Assembly (NCBI GenBank): GCA_017624115.1
Contig: JAGANQ010000032.1
Coordinates: 1 to 51,059, forward strand
Length of the DNA: 51,059 nucleotides
Direction: 5' to 3'
Origin: Lachnospiraceae bacterium
Lineage (GTDB): Bacteria; Bacillota; Clostridia; Lachnospirales; Lachnospiraceae
The notes under the pieces are model-generated. The model was not told the DNA's origin. It made no database searches and saw only the letters and a list, made by a program, of their open reading frames with translations. Positions 11,606-29,767 of this stretch are shown in pieces (the first letter of the stretch is position 1; each line of letters begins with the position of its first letter). The translations under genes and the position numbers were made by a program.

Positions 11606-12325
11606 CTATAAAAATAAACTGCACCAGAAAATAGAAGAAATCATGCCGCCAATCATGGAAAATGCCATGATAAAGTCATTGAGCCATTTCAGTCCGGGCT
11701 TTCTGGCAAAAATGCCAAGTACCACTGCGATAACAAGACCGGTCAGCATAACTGCCGCCTGAACTGTGTCACCGATTAAGAGAACAGGAACGTATACAGC
11801 GAAAAGACAGAGCATGAAGGTACCACTTAACACGTATTTCCAGTTATTTGTACCCTCTGTTTTGTTGACGCTCATAGAAAGCTTTTTGCCGAATGGAAGC
11901 AGGATAAAGAAGCCGCTTAACATACCGATGCTCATCAGAATCATCACAACGCCAAACTGGCGTCCCGTTGCCTGATCAAGCATTTCTGCATTGGTGGCAA
12001 AGCCGATAGCGGATGCTACGGCACTGGAAATCAGTGATTCATAGGAAAGGGAACCGATAACGGAAAGTCTCCACCAGCTCCATACCGTACCCAGTACAGA
12101 TATCAGCGCGAAGAGTCCGACCACGATGGACAGGCTCGGCACGATGGAGAAGACAAGGCTTGACTTAATGACGGTTTTTAAATCCTCTTTGGAGATGCCA
12201 AGCTCCAGACAGCGGGCATATGCCTTTTTTAAATATACAAGAGAAAAACCCACGATATAAAGTAAACCTACGATAACAAAAATCAACAGCAGCGGACTTG
12301 AAATAATGTCTTTCATTGAAACCAT
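11606..12325 (-). CDS. DUF5058 family membrane protein
   Basis: 239 residues starting MVSMKDIISSPLL, with about seven hydrophobic helices. Helix 1 (LLLIFVIVGLLYIVGF) is followed by a conserved cytoplasmic loop rich in charged residues (KKAYARCLELGISKEDL). This matches my memory of the DUF5058 family, usually found beside M20 amidohydrolases. The start is set at 12325, behind AGAGGT. The open frame runs 83 codons further, but that part is antisense to the amidohydrolase gene. It lies between the amidohydrolase and the other membrane protein. Function unknown; a transport role is likely from context. Confidence 0.75.
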   Translation of the reverse strand: MVSMKDIISSPLLLIFVIVGLLYIVGFSLVYLKKAYARCLELGISKEDLKTVIKSSLVFSIVPSLSIVVGLFALISVLGTVWSWWRLSVIGSLSYESLISSAVASAIGFATNAEMLDQATGRQFGVVMILMSIGMLSGFFILLPFGKKLSMSVNKTEGTNNWKYVLSGTFMLCLFAVYVPVLLIGDTVQAAVMLTGLVIAVVLGIFARKPGLKWLNDFIMAFSMIGGMISSIFWCSLFL

Positions 12326-12344
12326 AAAATTACCTCTCTTTCGT

Positions 12345-13571
12345 TTATTTATGCTCCGACAGCCAGCGCATCGCTGTATAGGCATAGACGGCGCTGCCGG
12401 ATGGCAGTACAGCTTCATCGAATTTTGCCTTTGGATGGTGCTGCGGATAGCAATAGCCCTCATTAGGGTGTCCTGCCGCAAGTGCCAGCATAATAGAAGG
12501 AACTTCCTGGCTGACATAGGCAAAATCCTCTGAGCCTGTGCTCTTAGGCGCTTTTCCGGCACCTGACATGGCATTTAACTGACCTGCGGTAAATGCCTTT
12601 GTGGGACCAAGCAGTTCTTTGATATATTTTGCGGTACATATGGCAAGCTCACTATTATTTAACAGAGTTGGACAGCCGCTCCCGAAGGATACAGAGGCTG
12701 CTGCGCGAAAAGCAGAGGCAATACCGGAAGCAATGTCTGTTATTCTCTGCTTTAGGAAGCTGCGGGCAGCTTCGTCATAGGTGCGGATGGTGCCGCTCAT
12801 CTCAGCCGTGTCGGGAATGACGTTAGCCGCTTTGCCTGCTTGAATGGTGCCAATCGTCAGGACTGCTTCATCAGAAAGACCAAGCTCCCTTGCGTGAATT
12901 TCCTGCAATCCGGTGATGATGTGTGCAGCAACTGTAATCGGGTCTACGCCGTTGTTGGGCATGGAACCGTGGCAGCCCTTTCCCTGTACATGGATGCTGA
13001 AATAATCTGCGGCAGGGGCACTGACGCCGCTGTCACAGGAGATAACTGTTCCTGCAGGAACAGGAAGCCCTGCCATAACATGAATCATCAGGGCGGCATC
13101 TACATCAGGATTTTTAAGAACACCTGCCTCTATCATATCGTGGGAGCCCTCAAATATTTCTTCAGCAGGCTGGAACATCAGCTTCACTGTACCCTCGATT
13201 TCATCCTCGTGTTCCTTTAAGAGTCTGGCAGCACCAAGCAGCATTGTGGTGTGCATATCATGACCGCACGCGTGCATCTTTCCGTTGGTGGAGGGAAAAT
13301 CTACATCCGCCTCCTCTTTAATAGGCAATGCGTCCATATCGGCTCTGATTAAAAATACCTTTCCCGGTTTTTTCCCTCCTGCCAGTGCTGCAAGACCGGC
13401 TTTGCCGTATTCCTTTGGTTCATAGCCCATGCTTATCAGCTCCTGCTTTACATAAGCGACCGTCTCTGCAATATCAAAGCCCGTTCCCGGATGAGTATGC
13501 AGATAATGTCTTGTTTTAATAAGCTGTTCCTGGAAGCCGGACGCTTCCTGCAATAATCCCTCTGCTGTCAT
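12345..13571 (-). CDS. M20 family amidohydrolase (N-acyl-amino-acid or hippurate hydrolase type)
   Basis: 408 residues with the M20D layout. Metal ligands are visible: C102 and H104 in MHACGHDMHTT, E137/E138 in QPAEE, and H164 in MIHVMAG. A lid or dimerisation domain occupies about 180-295. RADMDALP near 76-83 is typical. Such enzymes hydrolyse N-acyl or N-aminoacyl amides in the cytoplasm using Mn2+ or Zn2+. AGGAGG precedes the start. It is first in an operon with two membrane proteins, which suggests the substrate is imported by them. The natural substrate cannot be read from sequence. Confidence 0.9.
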   Translation of the reverse strand: MTAEGLLQEASGFQEQLIKTRHYLHTHPGTGFDIAETVAYVKQELISMGYEPKEYGKAGLAALAGGKKPGKVFLIRADMDALPIKEEADVDFPSTNGKMHACGHDMHTTMLLGAARLLKEHEDEIEGTVKLMFQPAEEIFEGSHDMIEAGVLKNPDVDAALMIHVMAGLPVPAGTVISCDSGVSAPAADYFSIHVQGKGCHGSMPNNGVDPITVAAHIITGLQEIHARELGLSDEAVLTIGTIQAGKAANVIPDTAEMSGTIRTYDEAARSFLKQRITDIASGIASAFRAAASVSFGSGCPTLLNNSELAICTAKYIKELLGPTKAFTAGQLNAMSGAGKAPKSTGSEDFAYVSQEVPSIMLALAAGHPNEGYCYPQHHPKAKFDEAVLPSGSAVYAYTAMRWLSEHK

Positions 13572-18964: not shown

Positions 18965-21139
18965 ATGGGAGAGGCTTTAAAAAGAGACAGCTTTACACTT
19001 CCGGGAGAATCCGGATATGAAGACCTGACGTTAAAACTTGCAAAGAAATGGGGCGCTGATGTTATCCGTGACAGTGACGGTACACAGTTATCCGATGAGA
19101 TTACAAATTCCGGTTATGGAATTTATTCTACCATCTGCCTGATTCGTTCTGACAATGCGTGGGCAAAGCAGAACATGGACAAGCTGCAGCAGAATTTCCT
19201 GATGAGCTATCCGGTAGTGGCAGAGGATACCACTGTGACGATTCAGCCATTAAAGGGATATTTTACACAGCAGTTTATGGTAAATACGAAGGATGACCCG
19301 AAGGAGTTCTGGCAGGTATTTGACCGTACCACGGACGAAGAGGTGGCTTTAGCTGACTGGGATTACAACCGGGAGACCGGCGAGGTGGTTGTCAGAAATG
19401 CGAAGAAGTGGCATAAATATACAGTAAACTTCCTGGCTGTGCGTCTGTGGGAAGAGATTTCCATGTATAACCATATCACAAATGACTGGGGTGATAAGGA
19501 ACATCTGATGGCCGTTGAGCCGAGATACCCGGAGACACAGGAGAATATTCTGAAGTGGCTGGAGGAGTGGTGTGTTGCTCATCCTGCTACTACAGTAGTA
19601 CGTTTCACTTCGATGTTCTACAACTTTGCATGGTTCTGGGGCGATGATATTGACTGCAGAAATATCTACAGTGACTGGGGTTCCTACGATTTTACGGCGA
19701 ATCCGGTGGCGCTTCGTGCATTTGAACAGGAAAAGGGCTACAAAATGACCTCTGAGGATTTTGTAAACAAAGGGCTGTACAATCAGACACATAATGCACC
19801 GTCTGAGAAATACCGTGAGTGGATGGACTTTGTAAATCGCTTTGTAGTAGAGTTTGGTAAGAAGTGCATTGACCTTGTACATAAATATGGAAAGAAAGCG
19901 TATGTGTTCTATGATGACAGCTGGATTGGTGTGGAGCCTTACGGCAAGCGTTTCCCTGAGTTTGGCTTCGATGGACTGATTAAATGTGTATTCAGCGGTT
20001 TTGAGGCAAGACTCTGTGCAGGTGCACAGGGAATTGATACCAGAGAGTTAAGACTTCATCCGTATCTGTTCCCGACAGGTCTGTCCGGTGAGCCGACATT
20101 TGCACCGGGAGGAAATCCGAAGTTGGATGCACAGAAGTTTTGGCAGAATGTGAGACGTGCGCTGCTGCGTAAGCCGGTAGACCGTATCGGCCTTGGCGGT
20201 TATCTGCATCTGGTAGAGCCGTTCCCGGATTTTTGCGATTATATGGAGAAGGTGACAGACGAGTTCCGCTTGTTAAAGAGCTTCCATCAGGCTGGTGACC
20301 CATATGTGATTCCTGGCAAGGTTATGATTCTGACCGCATGGGGCTCCTTGCGTTCCTGGACTTGCAGCGGACATCTGCATGAGCACCCGGAGGTAGATTT
20401 GATTAACGTGATTGAGTCTCTGTCCGGTCTGCCGTTTGATGTAGAATTCAAGAGCTTTGATGATATCGTGGCTGATGGTATCGGAAGTGATGTGAAGGTT
20501 ATTATCAATGCCGGTGTGCTGAACAGTGCATGGAGCGGCGGCGACAATTGGAAGAGAGCAGAGGTAGTGGAGAAGATTACGGAGTTTGTGGCAAATGGCG
20601 GCGGATTTATCGGTGTCAATGAGCCTTCTGCAGCAGAGCACAGCAGCCAGTTCTTCCAGCTTTCCCATATCCTTGGTGTGGATAAGGATCTTGGAACAAA
20701 GAAGTGTCTTGGCAAGTATGCTTATAAGGTACAGGCTGACAGCTTCATTACAGCAGAAAATAAAAACATTGACCTTCCAATCTGTGATGGTGTCTATGCA
20801 CTGGGCAAGGATACGATGGTGCTTGCAGAGAAGAACGGCACACCGATGGTGACAGCCGGCAGCTTTGACAAAGGCCGCAGTGTATACTTCTCCGGCTATC
20901 GTTTTAACCTGGAGAATACAAGACTGTTGATGCGTGCGATTCTGTATGCAGGACAGAATGAGAAGGCAATGGAGACTTATGTATGCTCCAATCCGATGAC
21001 AGAATGTGCTTATTATCCGGGCAGCGGCAAGCTGGTTATTATCAATAATACCGGAGATACACAGACGACAACGGTACGCATGGAGAACGGTAAGGAGGTT
21101 ACTGTGACACTGGCACCGTTTGATATCGAAATACAGTAA
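18965..21139 (+). CDS. GH112 phosphorylase, probably beta-1,4-galactosyl-L-rhamnose phosphorylase
   Basis: 724 residues matching the GH112 galactoside phosphorylase family along its length: TLPGESGYEDLTLKLAKKWG at the N-terminus, and DDSWIGVEPY (317-326), where D317 or D318 should be the general acid. FDGLIKCVFSGFEARLCAG and RELRLHPYLFPTGLSGEPTF follow, then a glutaminase-like domain and a C-terminal beta domain. GH112 enzymes cleave Gal-beta-1,3-HexNAc (lacto/galacto-N-biose) or Gal-beta-1,4-Rha with phosphate, giving galactose-1-phosphate. CE12, GH105 and PL11 neighbours point to the Gal-Rha type, since that unit occurs in RG-I side chains. No signal peptide; cytoplasmic. GGAGG precedes the start. 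Confidence 0.88.
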   Translation: MGEALKRDSFTLPGESGYEDLTLKLAKKWGADVIRDSDGTQLSDEITNSGYGIYSTICLIRSDNAWAKQNMDKLQQNFLMSYPVVAEDTTVTIQPLKGYFTQQFMVNTKDDPKEFWQVFDRTTDEEVALADWDYNRETGEVVVRNAKKWHKYTVNFLAVRLWEEISMYNHITNDWGDKEHLMAVEPRYPETQENILKWLEEWCVAHPATTVVRFTSMFYNFAWFWGDDIDCRNIYSDWGSYDFTANPVALRAFEQEKGYKMTSEDFVNKGLYNQTHNAPSEKYREWMDFVNRFVVEFGKKCIDLVHKYGKKAYVFYDDSWIGVEPYGKRFPEFGFDGLIKCVFSGFEARLCAGAQGIDTRELRLHPYLFPTGLSGEPTFAPGGNPKLDAQKFWQNVRRALLRKPVDRIGLGGYLHLVEPFPDFCDYMEKVTDEFRLLKSFHQAGDPYVIPGKVMILTAWGSLRSWTCSGHLHEHPEVDLINVIESLSGLPFDVEFKSFDDIVADGIGSDVKVIINAGVLNSAWSGGDNWKRAEVVEKITEFVANGGGFIGVNEPSAAEHSSQFFQLSHILGVDKDLGTKKCLGKYAYKVQADSFITAENKNIDLPICDGVYALGKDTMVLAEKNGTPMVTAGSFDKGRSVYFSGYRFNLENTRLLMRAILYAGQNEKAMETYVCSNPMTECAYYPGSGKLVIINNTGDTQTTTVRMENGKEVTVTLAPFDIEIQ

Positions 21140-21207: not shown

Positions 21208-22158
21208 CTATATCCAGCCAGGATATTTTTCCACGGCACCGCGGTCTGATTTTCCTTCTTCAAATAAGATATTCTTCTTCCAGTCGCGAGGTGAGGTTCC
21301 CATGGACTTGGCAAAACAGCGGTTAAAGGTGGAAACAGAGTTAAAACCGACTGCTTCTGATATGTAGAGTACCGATTCTTCTGTTGTCTTCAACATAATG
21401 CAGGCATGATAAATGCGGGTATTGTTGATAAATTCCAATGGCGAGGTGCCTGTTGTGGAATGGAAAATCCGACGGAAATGTGTCTCACTTAGATGGCACA
21501 TATCGGCAAGCTCTTTTACAGTAAAATTTAGCATGTAATTTTTATGAATATAGTCGAGAGCGGGGGCAATGGCAATTCTCCCATCCCCCAAATCCAGCCG
21601 AGGGGGGGTCTCTCCGGAAACTGAGACAGGCTCCTGGGAACGCTGGAATTCTATACAGAGAGCCAGCAAAAGCGCACGCACGGTTATCTGATAGTTCTCA
21701 GGCTTCTTCTCCAGTTCTTCGGCAACCGCTGTAGCAAGAGAGTAGATCTTTGGAAAACTTTCCCTACTGTAAATAAAGCGGAAATTAGGGACATTTACCA
21801 TTGATAAATCCGAAATCGGTGCAGCATTCCCCGGAAACATATTTCGAAACAGTTCATCCGGATTCAGAAAAATATAATTCCAGAGACTTGCCTCACCCGG
21901 AGAACTGTATGTAGTATGCGGAAGATTCCGGGGAACACAGGAAATATCGCCTTCTTTGAAAGCGAGAGGAGTGCCTTCAAACTCCATATAGCCGCTCTGC
22001 GACAGGCAGATGCCTATTTCGAGACAGTTATGAAAATGAAGGCGGTTACTTTTGACATCAGAAATATGCCATCTGTCGCCGGACAGAAGGATGACAGGGA
22101 AGGACATGGGTAAATCGTAGTGTCGATATTCAGTGATGGTCTTCTGCTTCTTTGGCAT
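21208..22158 (-). CDS. AraC family regulator with cupin sensor, likely RG-I locus regulator
   Basis: 316 residues. The N-terminal part (about 25-150) has cupin-like strands (HFHNCLEIGICLSQSGYME). Two helix-turn-helix units at 205-305 follow: VKELADMCHLSETHFRRIF, then VLYISEAVGFNSVSTFNRCF with the AraC-typical ending. It is divergent to the ABC transporter operon and next to GH112, so it probably activates these genes on binding an RG-I-derived sugar. Its own promoter is at 22215-22243. Ligand and target sites were not identified. Confidence 0.88.
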   Translation of the reverse strand: MPKKQKTITEYRHYDLPMSFPVILLSGDRWHISDVKSNRLHFHNCLEIGICLSQSGYMEFEGTPLAFKEGDISCVPRNLPHTTYSSPGEASLWNYIFLNPDELFRNMFPGNAAPISDLSMVNVPNFRFIYSRESFPKIYSLATAVAEELEKKPENYQITVRALLLALCIEFQRSQEPVSVSGETPPRLDLGDGRIAIAPALDYIHKNYMLNFTVKELADMCHLSETHFRRIFHSTTGTSPLEFINNTRIYHACIMLKTTEESVLYISEAVGFNSVSTFNRCFAKSMGTSPRDWKKNILFEEGKSDRGAVEKYPGWI

Positions 22159-22472: not shown

Positions 22473-23423
22473 ATGGCAAAGAAAAAAACAGCATTAGCTT
22501 CCGTGCCTAACAAGAAAGGTCTGGCTGTTTGTCTGAAGCGTGACTGGCAGTTATACTTTCTTTTGATTTTTCCGATTCTCTGTGTAATTCTATTTAATTA
22601 TGCAGCGTATCCGGGACTTCGTATGGCATTCATGAATTACAAGCCGGCAAAAGGCTATGAAGGCAGTGAATGGGTTGGCTTTGAAATCTTTCAGAAGATA
22701 TTCAGAGATAAGGACTTCATAAGAGCCTTGAGAAACTCTTTGGTATTTAATTTCCTGGATTTGATTGTGGGATTCCCAATGCCGATTATCCTGGCGATTT
22801 TACTGAATGAACTTCGTTATCCGATGTTTAAGAAGGTGACACAGACAATTCTGTATCTGCCGCATTTCTTATCATGGGTTATCATCGCCAGTGTTGCGCT
22901 TAACCTGTTTAAGCCAAGCACAGGACTTGTTAACATCTGGCTGATGAAGATGGGCTGGATAGATGAGGGTATTCCATTCCTGACAGAAAAATGGCACTGG
23001 GCAGTCACATACGAGCTGATTTATGTATGGCAGACGATGGGCTGGGGAACGATTATTTATCTCGCAGCCATTGCGGGCATCAATGGGGAACTGTATGAGG
23101 CAGCAGATATTGACGGTGCGAACCGCTGGCAGAAGATATGGAATATTACACTGCCAAGTATTAAGTGAACGATTGTTACTCTGTTGATTATGAACCTTGG
23201 ACGTGTGATGGGAAGTAACTTTGAACGACTGGATTCCTTTGATAACGTACAGGTGCGTGATTTCCAGTATCAGCTTGCTATCTATATTTATGATAAGGGT
23301 CTTTCTGGAAGCAATTTCAGTAAGGCTACAGCAGTAGGTTTGTTCCAGTCTATTACCGGTCTGATTCTGGTACTGGCTACAGATAAATTTGCCAAGATTC
23401 TTGGCGAAGACGGATTGATTTAA
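22473..23423 (+). pseudogene. Sugar ABC transporter permease (LplB type) with in-frame TGA
   Basis: The frame encodes a 316-residue LplB-type permease but is interrupted by TGA at 23166-23168 (codon 232). The upstream part has the N-terminal cytoplasmic tail, the first helices and the ABC loop (EAADIDGANRWQKIWNITLP). After the stop the same frame continues without any indel as TIVTLLIMNLGRVMGSNFERLD and ends normally at 23423. Intact relatives read straight through this point, usually with P, N, G or R there. The last two helices would be lost. Possible causes are a single-base mutation (for example CGA or GGA to TGA) or a base error; readthrough is less likely. It is the first gene of a permease-permease-binding protein operon. 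Confidence 0.85.
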
Positions 23424-23437
23424 GGAGGGAATGTAAA

Positions 23438-24352
23438 ATGGCAAAGAATATGAATGATGATGATTCCCGCTTTAATACGCCCCATGGCGTACATAAAATT
23501 AAAATCAGTGATATTATCATAATGGCAGTTATTACAATACTGTGCCTGACCTGTGTTGTGCCGTTCTTGCATCTGGCAGCAAAATCTGTCAGCAGTAATA
23601 CAGCAGTATTATCAAAGAGCGTATACTTCTGGCCGAAGGGTTTTAACTTTGACGCATATGCAGCTATTTTCCGTGATGGACAGATGACGCATGCAATGGT
23701 ATATACGGTTGAAATGACACTGATATTTACCATACTGGGTATGGTTGTATGTACCTGTGCGGCATACCCGCTTTCTAAGAAGAGATTGAAGGGAAGAAGC
23801 GTTATTTCAGTTATGCTGATGCTGACCATGTATTTTAACGCGGGTCTGATTCCTTCCTACCTGCTGATGAAGCAGCTCCATCTTTTAAATACGATGTGGG
23901 TATTGATTTTACCGTTGATTTTCTCACCGTATAACATGCTGATTATGAAGAGCTTCTTACAGTCCTCAATACCGGACAGCCTGGAGGAATCGGCATTCCT
24001 GGATGGCGCGACAAACTTCCAGATATTGTTTAAGATTGTACTTCCGCTTTCCAAGCCGATTATTGCGACGCTGAGCCTGTTCTATGCGGTAGGACGCTGG
24101 AATGCCTATGCAGATGCAAAGTATTATATTACAAAGAAGGCACTGCAGCCATTACAGTACATCTTAAGCAACATGGTGAAATCGGCAGCGGACAGTGCAG
24201 CCAGCCTTTCCGAGGCATCCCAGGTTACAAGTACTCCTGAGGTTTATCAGGCAGCAGCCGTTATGTTTGCGACGATTCCGATTATGTGTATCTATCCGTT
24301 TGTACAGAAGTACTTCGTAAAGGGCACTATGATTGGTGCGGTAAAGGGTTAA
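23438..24352 (+). CDS. Carbohydrate ABC transporter permease (YtcP/LplC type)
   Basis: 304 residues, six membrane helices. The first helix follows a short charged tail (KISDIIIMAVITILCLTCVVP). The binding-protein-dependent permease loop is visible as EESAFLDGATNFQILFKIVLPLSKP, which couples to the ATPase. It sits 14 bases after the first permease and ends 111 bases before the binding protein gene. The window holds no ATPase, so a shared MsmX-type ATPase is expected. Its substrate is probably RG-I oligosaccharide by context. It looks intact, but its partner permease is interrupted. Confidence 0.92.
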   Translation: MAKNMNDDDSRFNTPHGVHKIKISDIIIMAVITILCLTCVVPFLHLAAKSVSSNTAVLSKSVYFWPKGFNFDAYAAIFRDGQMTHAMVYTVEMTLIFTILGMVVCTCAAYPLSKKRLKGRSVISVMLMLTMYFNAGLIPSYLLMKQLHLLNTMWVLILPLIFSPYNMLIMKSFLQSSIPDSLEESAFLDGATNFQILFKIVLPLSKPIIATLSLFYAVGRWNAYADAKYYITKKALQPLQYILSNMVKSAADSAASLSEASQVTSTPEVYQAAAVMFATIPIMCIYPFVQKYFVKGTMIGAVKG

Positions 24353-24463: not shown

Positions 24464-26218
24464 ATGAAGAAAAACTTTAAAAAAGCAGTTGCCCTTGCTA
24501 TGGCAAGTGCAATGGTAATGGGCAGCCTTTCTGCATGCGGTGGCAAGACTGATACACCGGCAAGCACAACAGCAGCAACAACAAAGGCAGCAGAGAACAG
24601 CACAACAAAAGCAGCAGAAGCTGCCACAACAGCTGCAGCAGAGAACACAGCAGCAGGTATCGAAGGCTGGACACCATTCGCAGAGCGTGTACATATCACA
24701 GTTCCTGTATATGACCGTTCCAAGGAAGGCTATCCTGCAGTAGATGATAACTACTGGACACAGTGGGTACAGAAGGAATTCGGTGACAAGTATAACATCG
24801 ATGTGGAATATGTAGCAATCCCTCGTGGAGACGTTATGACAAAGTACAGCCTGTTAATCGCTTCCGATGATACTCCTACTATCCTTATGGAGTATGACTA
24901 TCCGAAGGTAGCTCAGTGGGCAAGTGAGGGTGCTATGCAGGAAATCGACCTGGATGCTTTCGCACAGGTAGCTCCTACATACTATGGCAAGATGGTTGAG
25001 AACAATCAGCTGGCATACACAGATATCGATGGAAAGACATATTTCGTATTATCTGAGAGACCATATTACAACACAACATACAGCTTTGTGACATTCGTAA
25101 GAATGGACTGGTTAAGACAGGTTGGTTATGACCATGTTCCACAGAGCTATGAGGAGCACAAGGATGCTATCAACAAGATCATCGCAGCAGGTCTGACAGA
25201 TCAGGCACCTTTAGGATTATCCCTTCCTACAACAGCTTACTGCCAGAACTTCGCATTCAGAGATTACCCGGTTGACGAGGCTGAGTGGGCTATGCATTCT
25301 TCCTTAGGTACACCTTCCCTTTCCTGGGAGCCTACCTATAGAATGTTAAAGAGACAGAACGCAGAGTATAACATGAACTGGTACTCTTCAGAGTACGAAC
25401 TGGATGCAGACGGTGCAGCAGGTAACACAAGCTCCCAGCAGCAGACAGACTTCATCAACGGTAAGTTATATCAGTACGGCGGATATATGTCTGCAAATGT
25501 AGACTGGTTAACAGCATTCTATGAGAATAACCCAGATGCTGAGTTGGCACTTGCTTCCAACTACGCAGTAGTTGAGCCGGGCGTTGTTGATTTCCCTCAG
25601 TTCCGTGCAGACAACCCATTTGGTATGATCGTTGGCTTCAGCAGCCTTGCAGATGAGAATCAGTTAAAGGCAGCATGGATGTACATGGAGTGGATGAGCC
25701 AGGAAGAGACACTGTTCACAATGGAAAATGGTATCGAAGGTGTTACCTATACACTTAACGAGGAAGGTCTTCCGGTAGTAAATGGTGATTACAGAGGAAC
25801 AGAGATGTTAAACCACAACTGTAACATCGATATGACATGTATCGTACATGCATTAAAGGTTAATGGTACAATCGAGCAGAGTATTGAGGCTATTTCTCCG
25901 AAGGGACTTCCTCAGGACTTCACTCAGGCTATGATTGATAACTACTATGAGTTAAAGAAGATTGCTGATGAGCAGCATGCATACTCTGACCCTGTATTTG
26001 CAGTTGCTATCGAGTGTGAAGCAGAGTACAGCGCAGACCTGTTAAAGGCATATCAGGAAGCAAGCGTTAAGTTGACAAAGTGTAAGCCGGAAGAGTTCGA
26101 TGCAATCTATGCAGAAGAATCTAAGAAGTTCTTAGAGGCTGGTTATCAGGAAGTTATCGATGAAAGAAAAGCAGCTTATGAGGCAGGAAGCACAACAAAG
26201 CTTCCTTGGAATAAGTAA
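24464..26218 (+). CDS. Extracellular solute-binding lipoprotein, probable RG-I oligosaccharide binder
   Basis: 584 residues with a lipoprotein signal peptide (lipobox LSAC, Cys25). A low-complexity linker rich in T, A, K and E follows (about 28-66), then a family-1-type binding domain. Large binding proteins of this size pair with LplB/YtcP permeases for complex oligosaccharides. AGGAGG precedes the start. Third in the transporter operon and followed by a terminator, it probably acts on the cell surface beside the PL11 lyase. Codon use in this gene is strongly biased (CAG, GCA, ACA, AAG), as expected for an abundant protein. Confidence 0.92.
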   Translation: MKKNFKKAVALAMASAMVMGSLSACGGKTDTPASTTAATTKAAENSTTKAAEAATTAAAENTAAGIEGWTPFAERVHITVPVYDRSKEGYPAVDDNYWTQWVQKEFGDKYNIDVEYVAIPRGDVMTKYSLLIASDDTPTILMEYDYPKVAQWASEGAMQEIDLDAFAQVAPTYYGKMVENNQLAYTDIDGKTYFVLSERPYYNTTYSFVTFVRMDWLRQVGYDHVPQSYEEHKDAINKIIAAGLTDQAPLGLSLPTTAYCQNFAFRDYPVDEAEWAMHSSLGTPSLSWEPTYRMLKRQNAEYNMNWYSSEYELDADGAAGNTSSQQQTDFINGKLYQYGGYMSANVDWLTAFYENNPDAELALASNYAVVEPGVVDFPQFRADNPFGMIVGFSSLADENQLKAAWMYMEWMSQEETLFTMENGIEGVTYTLNEEGLPVVNGDYRGTEMLNHNCNIDMTCIVHALKVNGTIEQSIEAISPKGLPQDFTQAMIDNYYELKKIADEQHAYSDPVFAVAIECEAEYSADLLKAYQEASVKLTKCKPEEFDAIYAEESKKFLEAGYQEVIDERKAAYEAGSTTKLPWNK

Positions 26219-26340: not shown

Positions 26341-27405
26341 ATGTTAAAGTTAACCTACGACAAGAAACAGATTTTAGATGTGATGGATAAAGTAGTAAGA
26401 AAGACCATGACGATGGACATGGTATGGGACTGGCCATGCGGAGTAGCTTATTATGGTGTCTGCAAAGCATATGAGACAACGGGAAATAAGGAATATCTGG
26501 ATATGCTGGTGAAGTGGACGGACGAATATCTGGAGATGGGACTTCCTGACTGGAATGTGAATGCCTGTGCTATGGGACATGCCATGATTTCTCTGTATGA
26601 GGCAACCGGAGACCAGAAGTACTGGGATCTCGTGATGAGCAAGGTGGATTATCTGCGCAACAGGGCACTTCGTTTTGGTGACCATGTGTTACAGCATACA
26701 GTATCTTCAAACAATGATTTCCCGGAGCAGGCATGGGCTGATACATTATTTATGGCAGCGTTTTTCTTATTAAGAGTAGGCGCAAAATTAAAGGATCAGG
26801 ATATTATCAATGATGCATTAAACCAGTATTACTGGCATATCAAGTATTTGCAGGATGAAAAGACCAGTCTCTGGTATCACGGCTATAATAATATACATAA
26901 GGATCATATGTCTGGCTTCTATTGGGGAAGAGCAAATGCGTGGGCAGCTTACACTATGTCTCAGGTTAAGAAGCAGTTAAGTGACTGGTATCTGTATCCG
27001 CCTTGCATGGATGTAGAGTGCTCGATTCGTGACCAGTTGGCAGCAATCAAGCTTCTGCAGACAGAAAATGGTTTATGGAGAACGATTCTTGATGATCCGG
27101 AATCTTATGAAGAGGTTTCCGCATCTGCAGGTATCGCAGCAGCGATGATTGATAACGGTAATCCACTTCATTCCAAGTATGTGCAGAAGGCATTGAGGGG
27201 TATTCTTGATAATATCAGCGAGGATGGAAGAGTTCTCAATGTGTCCGGCGGTACGGCTGTTATGAAGGACAGAGAAGGCTACAGAAATGTACCGAAGGCA
27301 TGGATTCAGGGCTGGGGTCAGGGTCTGGCACTGGCATTTCTGGCAGCTGTTATCAGTGTACCTTCTGCGAATGAGAAGACAACTGTGGAAAAAACAGAAG
27401 AGTAA
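26341..27405 (+). CDS. GH105 unsaturated rhamnogalacturonyl hydrolase (YteR/YesR type)
   Basis: 354 residues with the alpha6/alpha6-barrel repeats of GH105. D134 in EQAWADTLFMAA matches the catalytic Asp143 of YteR; other family motifs include WDWPCGVAYYG near 29-39 and GFYWGRANAWAAY. The enzyme adds water to the unsaturated uronic acid left by the lyase and releases it from rhamnose. It has no signal peptide and acts in the cytoplasm. AGGAGG precedes the start. Position between the importer and the PL11 lyase fits RG-I breakdown. Confidence 0.93.
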   Translation: MLKLTYDKKQILDVMDKVVRKTMTMDMVWDWPCGVAYYGVCKAYETTGNKEYLDMLVKWTDEYLEMGLPDWNVNACAMGHAMISLYEATGDQKYWDLVMSKVDYLRNRALRFGDHVLQHTVSSNNDFPEQAWADTLFMAAFFLLRVGAKLKDQDIINDALNQYYWHIKYLQDEKTSLWYHGYNNIHKDHMSGFYWGRANAWAAYTMSQVKKQLSDWYLYPPCMDVECSIRDQLAAIKLLQTENGLWRTILDDPESYEEVSASAGIAAAMIDNGNPLHSKYVQKALRGILDNISEDGRVLNVSGGTAVMKDREGYRNVPKAWIQGWGQGLALAFLAAVISVPSANEKTTVEKTEE

Positions 27406-27637: not shown

Positions 27638-29767
27638 ATGTATTACAAAAAAATAAAAAAGATTACGGCAGTAGTCGCGGCTCTGTCGATAGCAGTATCA
27701 GCAACAGCCTGTGGTTCGGCTTCTGACGGGGCGACAACACCGGCGGCGCTGGCACAGCCTGAGACATCTGCAGAGACCACAACAGCACAGACAACGACAG
27801 CGGCAGAGACTACGACAGCCGAACCGGAAACAGAGACGAAGGAAGAGACAACGCAGTATGGTACATTGACGGATTTCGGAGTCAGGGCAGATGCTGAAAG
27901 CTATTCTGACCGTGCGCTGGTAGCAGTAAAGGAAAGTACACGCTCGCCGGAGGGCATTTTTGTGAGCTGGCGTGCATATGAGGCAGATTCTGCAGGTATA
28001 AGCTTTACACTGGAGAGAAACGGCGAGGTGGTCTATACAGGTGACAGAACCAGTTATTTTGATACGGAGGGTAAGTCCGGCGATACCTACAGGCTGACAG
28101 CCAGCGAGGGACTTTCACAGTCGGGTGAGGAGACAATCGCGTGGAGCAGAGAGTATCAGGAGTTTACCCTGCAGGCACCGGAGCCTCAGACGATGCCGGA
28201 TGGTTCTGAGACAGCGTATACGTCCAATGATATGTCCGTGGGAGATTTAGACGGAGACGGTCAGCTTGAGCTGATTGTAAAGTGGTATCCGGGCAATGCA
28301 CAGGATAATTCGAAGGATGGGTATACCGGAACCACATTTTTAGACGGTTATGATATCAATATCGCAACCGGAGAGGCAAAGCTGATGTGGCGTATTGACC
28401 TTGGATTAAATATCCGCTCCGGTGCACATTATACACAATTCCAGGTATGGGATTATGACGGAGACGGCTGCGCAGAGGTCATGTGCAAGACTGCCGATGG
28501 TACGACTGCCTATGATGCTTCTTTGAATGAGACTGGCTTTGTCGGGGCAGTGAGCATGAGCAGCCTTGATATATCTGCAAAGGGCACGCCGGAGCAGTAT
28601 GATTTCCGCCAGCATAGCGGCAGACTGGGACGAATCGTACTCGGACAGGAATATCTGACAGTATTTGATGGAAAGACTGGCAGTATCATTGATACGGTGG
28701 AATATATCCCGGAGCGTGGACCTTATGACGAGGTGAAGGGAATCTATGACACCAGATACTGGGGTCTAAAGGATGGCTATCCGGCAGAGAAAAATGACGG
28801 TTATGCAAACCGCTGCGACCGTTTCCTTGCTGCGACGGCGTATCTGGATGACGGCTCTGCCAGTGCCGTGTTCTGCCGTGGCTATTATGGAAGAACGGCG
28901 CTTACCGCATGGAAGCTGATTGATAAGAAGCTTGTCATGCAGTGGGCATTTGATGTGCCGAATGAAAGCGAATATGCAGCACAGGGAAATCATGGACTGT
29001 CGGTCAATGATGTAGACAATGACGGCTATGATGAGATTATCTACGGCTCTCTGGTAGTAGATAACACAGGAGAAGCTCTTTATGCGACTGGTCTGGGACA
29101 CGGGGATGCGATGCATGTCAGTGACTGGAATAATGACGGTAAGCTGGAGGTCTTCAGCGTGCATGAGGAGGCAAATGCAAAATACCATGTAGAGCTGCAT
29201 GATGCAGCGACAGGTGAGATTTTGTGGGGTTATGCAAATGGCAAGGATACCGGACGAGGTGTTGCAGCCGATATCGACCCACGCTACGAGGGTGCTGAGA
29301 TGTGGTGTGCTGTTACCAATGTAACCTATGACAGCCAGGGGAATATTATTTATCAGGATAAAAAGCCAAGTCAGAACTTTTCTATGTACTGGGACGGCGA
29401 TTTGCTGATGGAGCTTTTTGACTCCAACAACAGCGAGCAGCTCATACCACAGATTCAGAAGTGGGATTATGAAAACCTGAAAACAAATGTATTATTGCAG
29501 GCAGACGGGGCACAGCTCAATAACGGAACAAAGGCAAATGCAGGATTAGTTGCTGATATTTACGGTGACTGGAGAGAAGAGGTTATCGTAAGAGATGCTG
29601 AAGATAATAATAAGATTCGTATCTACAGCACGACTTATGAGACGGAGTATGTATTCCCATGTATGCTCGAGGACAGAGCTTATCGCGAGGGTGTGGCATG
29701 GCAGAATACCGCTTATAACCAGCCGGCGAATCTTCCATATCTGCTGAGTGAGGATAGGAGCAGATAA
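27638..29767 (+). CDS. PL11 rhamnogalacturonan lyase, lipid-anchored
   Basis: 709 residues. Signal peptide and lipobox ATAC (Cys25), then a T/A/E-rich linker (28-70) and a beta domain, then the PL11 eight-bladed propeller. Ca2+-binding repeats are plain: GDLDGDGQLELIVKW, DYDGDGCAEVMCKTADG, DVDNDGYDEIIYG and DWNNDGKLEVF. PL11 enzymes cleave the Rha-GalA bond of RG-I by beta-elimination and leave an unsaturated galacturonate. The lipid anchor would hold it outside the membrane beside the binding protein. AAGGAGG precedes the start. The linker resembles that of the binding protein. Confidence 0.93.
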   Translation: MYYKKIKKITAVVAALSIAVSATACGSASDGATTPAALAQPETSAETTTAQTTTAAETTTAEPETETKEETTQYGTLTDFGVRADAESYSDRALVAVKESTRSPEGIFVSWRAYEADSAGISFTLERNGEVVYTGDRTSYFDTEGKSGDTYRLTASEGLSQSGEETIAWSREYQEFTLQAPEPQTMPDGSETAYTSNDMSVGDLDGDGQLELIVKWYPGNAQDNSKDGYTGTTFLDGYDINIATGEAKLMWRIDLGLNIRSGAHYTQFQVWDYDGDGCAEVMCKTADGTTAYDASLNETGFVGAVSMSSLDISAKGTPEQYDFRQHSGRLGRIVLGQEYLTVFDGKTGSIIDTVEYIPERGPYDEVKGIYDTRYWGLKDGYPAEKNDGYANRCDRFLAATAYLDDGSASAVFCRGYYGRTALTAWKLIDKKLVMQWAFDVPNESEYAAQGNHGLSVNDVDNDGYDEIIYGSLVVDNTGEALYATGLGHGDAMHVSDWNNDGKLEVFSVHEEANAKYHVELHDAATGEILWGYANGKDTGRGVAADIDPRYEGAEMWCAVTNVTYDSQGNIIYQDKKPSQNFSMYWDGDLLMELFDSNNSEQLIPQIQKWDYENLKTNVLLQADGAQLNNGTKANAGLVADIYGDWREEVIVRDAEDNNKIRIYSTTYETEYVFPCMLEDRAYREGVAWQNTAYNQPANLPYLLSEDRSR

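Follow-up and report, generated by a model that had tools for sequence, protein, structure and literature searches.

The gene for an LplB/YteP-type ABC sugar permease at 22473-23423 of the window (the whole stretch of 51,059 nucleotides that was analysed) is interrupted by a single in-frame TGA, which is best interpreted as a recent knock-out of an ordinary kind or as a draft base error, and not as a new reading of the genetic code. It seems somewhat probable that a very recent single-base nonsense change has turned a glycine codon into TGA in the assembled lineage or population. The window (contig C64) derives from an uncultured gut-type member of the Clostridia that is represented by one draft genome (2.0 Mb, 94 contigs, 76% complete), and the comparison set comprises one genome per species and one other genome of the genus (hereafter the congener).

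The permease frame lies on the forward strand and starts at ATG 22473, with a good Shine-Dalgarno sequence upstream (AGAGGAGGATGAAGC). The TGA at 23166-23168 is codon 232 and splits it into 231 codons (22473-23165) and a remainder of 84 codons plus TAA (23169-23423), the reading continuing unchanged in phase past the TGA up to the TAA at 23421-23423. No further stops or frameshifts were found within 22473-23423, and the base following the TGA is A. On all these points (i.e. an LplB-type permease with one TGA, the same frame continuing to 23423, and the A after the stop) the initial annotation was right. The 231-codon part gives a match to PF00528 (BPD_transp_1; 9.6e-12) and contains the EAA loop (EAADIDGANRWQKIWNITLP, residues about 209-228), which docks the ATPase, is conserved among relatives and lies 5' of the stop; of the features expected of the family, it is the uninterrupted frame that is lacking. 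The whole frame can be aligned end to end with its relatives (identities of 88% with the congener and 69-79% with most of the rest) and hence represents a single gene that carries one stop, not a pair of genes. The closest solved relative is AlgM1, the permease of an alginate ABC importer (PDB 4tqu), of which residues 8-297 align with residues 21-312 of the permease (E 4e-66; 292 residues, whole frame); AlgM1, in contrast to the stop-bearing permease, imports alginate and is intact. The codon-usage log-odds of the 84 post-stop codons is 0.28 per codon, versus 0.25 for the gene. With this gene-like usage and a residue-by-residue match to relatives over 84 codons, the open frame past the stop is far beyond chance.

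The initial annotation offered a fresh nonsense mutation as one of its explanations and proposed to compare the codon in close relatives, a comparison which shows that the stop is new to this genome. The congener's permease, with 88% protein identity, is encoded by an open frame in which GGA (Gly) stands at the site of codon 232, a single-base difference from TGA. Among 80 relatives (congener included), the site is occupied by Gly in 54, Ser in 18, Pro in 4, Ala in 2, Thr in 1 and Arg in 1, and TGA occurs in none of them. Within the family, seven genomes contain a close match, and the present genome is the only one with a stop within the permease frame. The stop is thus both missing from the relatives and one base removed from the glycine codon of the congener, as would be expected of a young nonsense change. 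The permease is intact in all of the ~80 relatives but one, where a different stop is located elsewhere in the gene: in a Clostridiaceae metagenome draft (AS10tlH2TH_408; L077:3139-4035) an in-frame TAA occupies the codon matching residue 28. Single lesions of that kind appear occasionally in such drafts.

Relative to the congener, the 84 post-stop codons contain 6.5 nonsynonymous and 30.5 synonymous differences (dN/dS about 0.04), which can be set beside ratios of 0.05 for the partner permease, 0.04 for the binding protein and 0.04 for the hydrolase of the same locus; for the part before the stop dS was saturated, and the ratio was left unused. Replacements in the lineage of the window amount to 4 in the 84 post-stop codons versus 15 in 219 pre-stop codons, an equal rate within error. 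Had the post-stop codons been unconstrained during the whole branch, about 88 replacements would be expected (half of a dS of 0.91, over 194 nonsynonymous sites), against the 4 that are seen. Purifying selection on these codons has therefore been as strong as on the rest of the gene, which means that the change is either very young or an error; judging from the replacement counts, the codons would have been free of selection for no more than about a tenth of the branch, unless the stop is not real. Recent nonsense pseudogenes and in-frame stops of bacterial genes described elsewhere (PMC7918605) are alike in having a single stop, an otherwise intact frame and a dN/dS far below 1; for the permease, the comparison covers a single strain of the species.

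The organism uses TGA as an ordinary stop codon. In a scan of ORFs of at least 100 aa, TGA terminates 33 of the 159 sampled. The gene for release factor RF2 (prfB; contig C36, L157 around 1500) is present with the classic in-frame UGA at a CTT-TGA-C frameshift site, which is the known site of RF2 autoregulation. The anticodon of tRNA-Trp is CCA, and a tRNA with a UCA anticodon was not found among the tRNAs detected in the 76%-complete genome, an absence that is weak evidence alone, since the draft may lack a quarter of the genome. No match to tRNA-Sec exceeded the model cut-off, and those of the weaker matches that were checked turned out to be ordinary Ser, Leu and other tRNAs. The site of the stop itself has no match to an RNA family in Rfam, and no stable structure is found 3' of it, the fold being weaker than that of most shuffles (z = 0.87). 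General reassignment of TGA is refuted by its use as a stop and the retained RF2, together with the UCA tRNA that was not found, and the missing Rfam match, the weak fold and the relatives that mostly have Gly or Ser at the site, not Cys or Trp, speak against a selenoprotein. That TGA encodes an amino acid here, be it through a change of the genetic code or as selenocysteine, is consequently scarcely conceivable, the one point in its favour being the open continuation of the frame.

Leaky termination, by which the TGA would be partly read (as Trp in E. coli) and the permease reduced instead of abolished, is easier to defend, yet it is still considered unlikely. In-frame stops with a dN/dS below 1 have been reported as common in bacteria and were interpreted as readthrough (PMC7918605). 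In E. coli no stop is leakier than TGA, for which readthrough reaching 80% has been reported under stress in some contexts (PMC11126739), and the constraint past the stop is intact here. A young mutation yields the same dN/dS, however, and the low-dN/dS stops of PMC7918605 fit youth as well as readthrough. In addition, neither the TGA nor a recoding signal is kept in any of the 80 relatives, which speaks against programmed readthrough, and the site lacks an RNA family and a stable structure. The initial annotation held that the A after the stop is not a leaky context. For E. coli, termination is described as weakened by a G and strengthened by a T in that position (PMC11126739); the A found here is neither of these, so that the context is middling. 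Even less probable is a related scenario in which a real TGA is tolerated and acts as a switch that a fraction of ribosomes reads as Trp, and in which, together with the frameshift in a second lyase gene (see below), the population is reversibly tuning or losing its use of rhamnogalacturonan. Restart after the stop, with the two parts assembling into a working permease, was rejected and has next to no probability. The N-terminal part does retain the EAA loop, and in-frame starts occur shortly past the stop (TTG 23184, ATG 23190), but no start codon with a Shine-Dalgarno sequence was found in 23169-23423, in contrast to the strong ones that precede the operon's real genes; moreover, no relative is split at this place, and residues 222-240, within which the break lies, are predicted to form a hydrophobic helix.

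What competes most seriously with the nonsense allele is a consensus base error in a metagenome-assembled draft, or a base taken from a minor strain, the gene being intact in the organism; we regard this as quite possible, although not as the probable explanation. With a single genome of the species, identical data are to be expected from a base error and from a nonsense allele, and the missing decay, both before and after the stop, fits an error equally well as youth. An error is further suggested by the state of the draft (94 contigs, 76% complete), by the one-base distance to the congener's codon, by the different stop in the same gene of one of the 80 relatives, likewise a metagenome draft, and by other single-site lesions in the 208 kb of stretches that were sampled (~200 ORFs, window included), where at least two genes besides the permease are broken. 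It should be added that the metagenome origin of the present draft is only deduced from its completeness and fragmentation.

The broken genes are a second rhamnogalacturonan lyase of family 11 (RGL11; contig C11, L111:8570-11019, minus strand), with a frameshift near the end of its first part, and a blaR1-like M56 peptidase gene (contig C26, L118:5220-6658, minus strand), with a frameshift near the HExxH region followed by an in-frame TGA. The lyase is cut into pieces of 428 and 387 residues that each match PF21348, in the right order, and their counterpart in the congener (85%) is a single open frame of 825 aa; the blaR1-like gene adjoins a gene of the penicillinase-repressor type, and its lesion was missed by a first scan (ORFs of at least 100 aa) and found by a second. 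Stops were also flagged inside other ABC ATPases, and the two examined (C34 and C86) are natural gene ends and not lesions. The existence of other such lesions in the genome implies that the permease stop is not special. With the permease counted in, about 3 genes in roughly 200 ORFs are broken (about 1.5%, as a lower bound). Real bacteria ordinarily have a share of pseudogenes of this size, and the lesions can be explained without noise, although a noisy consensus could produce them too. Searching the literature for pseudogenes and for errors in draft genomes yielded nothing. In all, the preference of the initial annotation for a fresh nonsense mutation or a base error is retained, readthrough being the least likely of the three explanations it had offered.

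Following the nonsense allele, for which the T at 23166 is presumed to be real, ribosomes would terminate at codon 232 and the product would be devoid of the C-terminal 85 residues, i.e. the last transmembrane part past the EAA loop, its end falling a few residues past that loop and inside the predicted helix. Such a truncated permease should not work, in which case no complete permease would be formed and the importer of the RG-I locus would be off, while the locus would be otherwise kept only because there has been too little time for decay. Provided that the base is real, the stop adds one more young allele of the loss-of-function kind, here in the pectin-use locus of a gut-type anaerobe, and its value is chiefly that of a warning: gene callers would output either a permease of 231 residues or two fragments, and the RG-I importer could be scored as absent by a pathway tool. 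Should it be an error, it serves as a reminder to check single stops in drafts against the reads first.

That the permease belongs to an otherwise well-kept RG-I locus, as annotated initially, is supported by its neighbours, all of which are intact. These are a GH112 phosphorylase of the lacto-N-biose / galactosyl-rhamnose type (18965-21139, forward; PF09508, TIGR02336), an AraC-type regulator beside the permease (21208-22158, reverse), the partner permease of the YtcP/MalG side (23438-24352, forward; PF00528), an extracellular sugar-binding lipoprotein (24464-26218, forward; PF01547), a GH88/GH105-type unsaturated glucuronyl or galacturonyl hydrolase (26341-27405, forward; PF07470) and an RGL11 with an N-terminal signal (27638-29767, forward; PF21348, PF18370). 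The regulator, both permeases, the binding protein and the hydrolase are found in identical order on a contig of the congener. Judged by gene content, the locus shares its logic with the YtcQP-YteP importer of B. subtilis, in which YteP is of the LplB type and energised by MsmX: both combine two permeases, a binding protein and an unsaturated hydrolase with the use of RG-I (PMC5730181), the YteP-like gene here differing from YteP by the stop at codon 232. The lyase is probably still made outside the cell, as had been claimed, since the gene at 27638-29767 is intact and its N-terminus reads as a lipoprotein signal. The accompanying claim that the strain cannot import RG-I products goes too far, because a second rhamnogalacturonan-type locus on contig C11 (the one with the frameshifted RGL11) has an intact predicted permease pair (LplB and YtcP-like) and binding protein. 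Additional LplB-like genes are also present in the genome, as is a UgpC/MsmX-type ATPase. B. subtilis that has lost YtcQ still grows on RG-I, with a doubling time of 496 minutes instead of 189 (PMC5730181). Elsewhere in the window, a DUF5058 gene (11606-12574) and an M20 peptidase gene (12345-13571), both on the minus strand, share 230 bases in their called extents; since the match to DUF5058 starts only at residue 93, the true start of that gene probably lies downstream.
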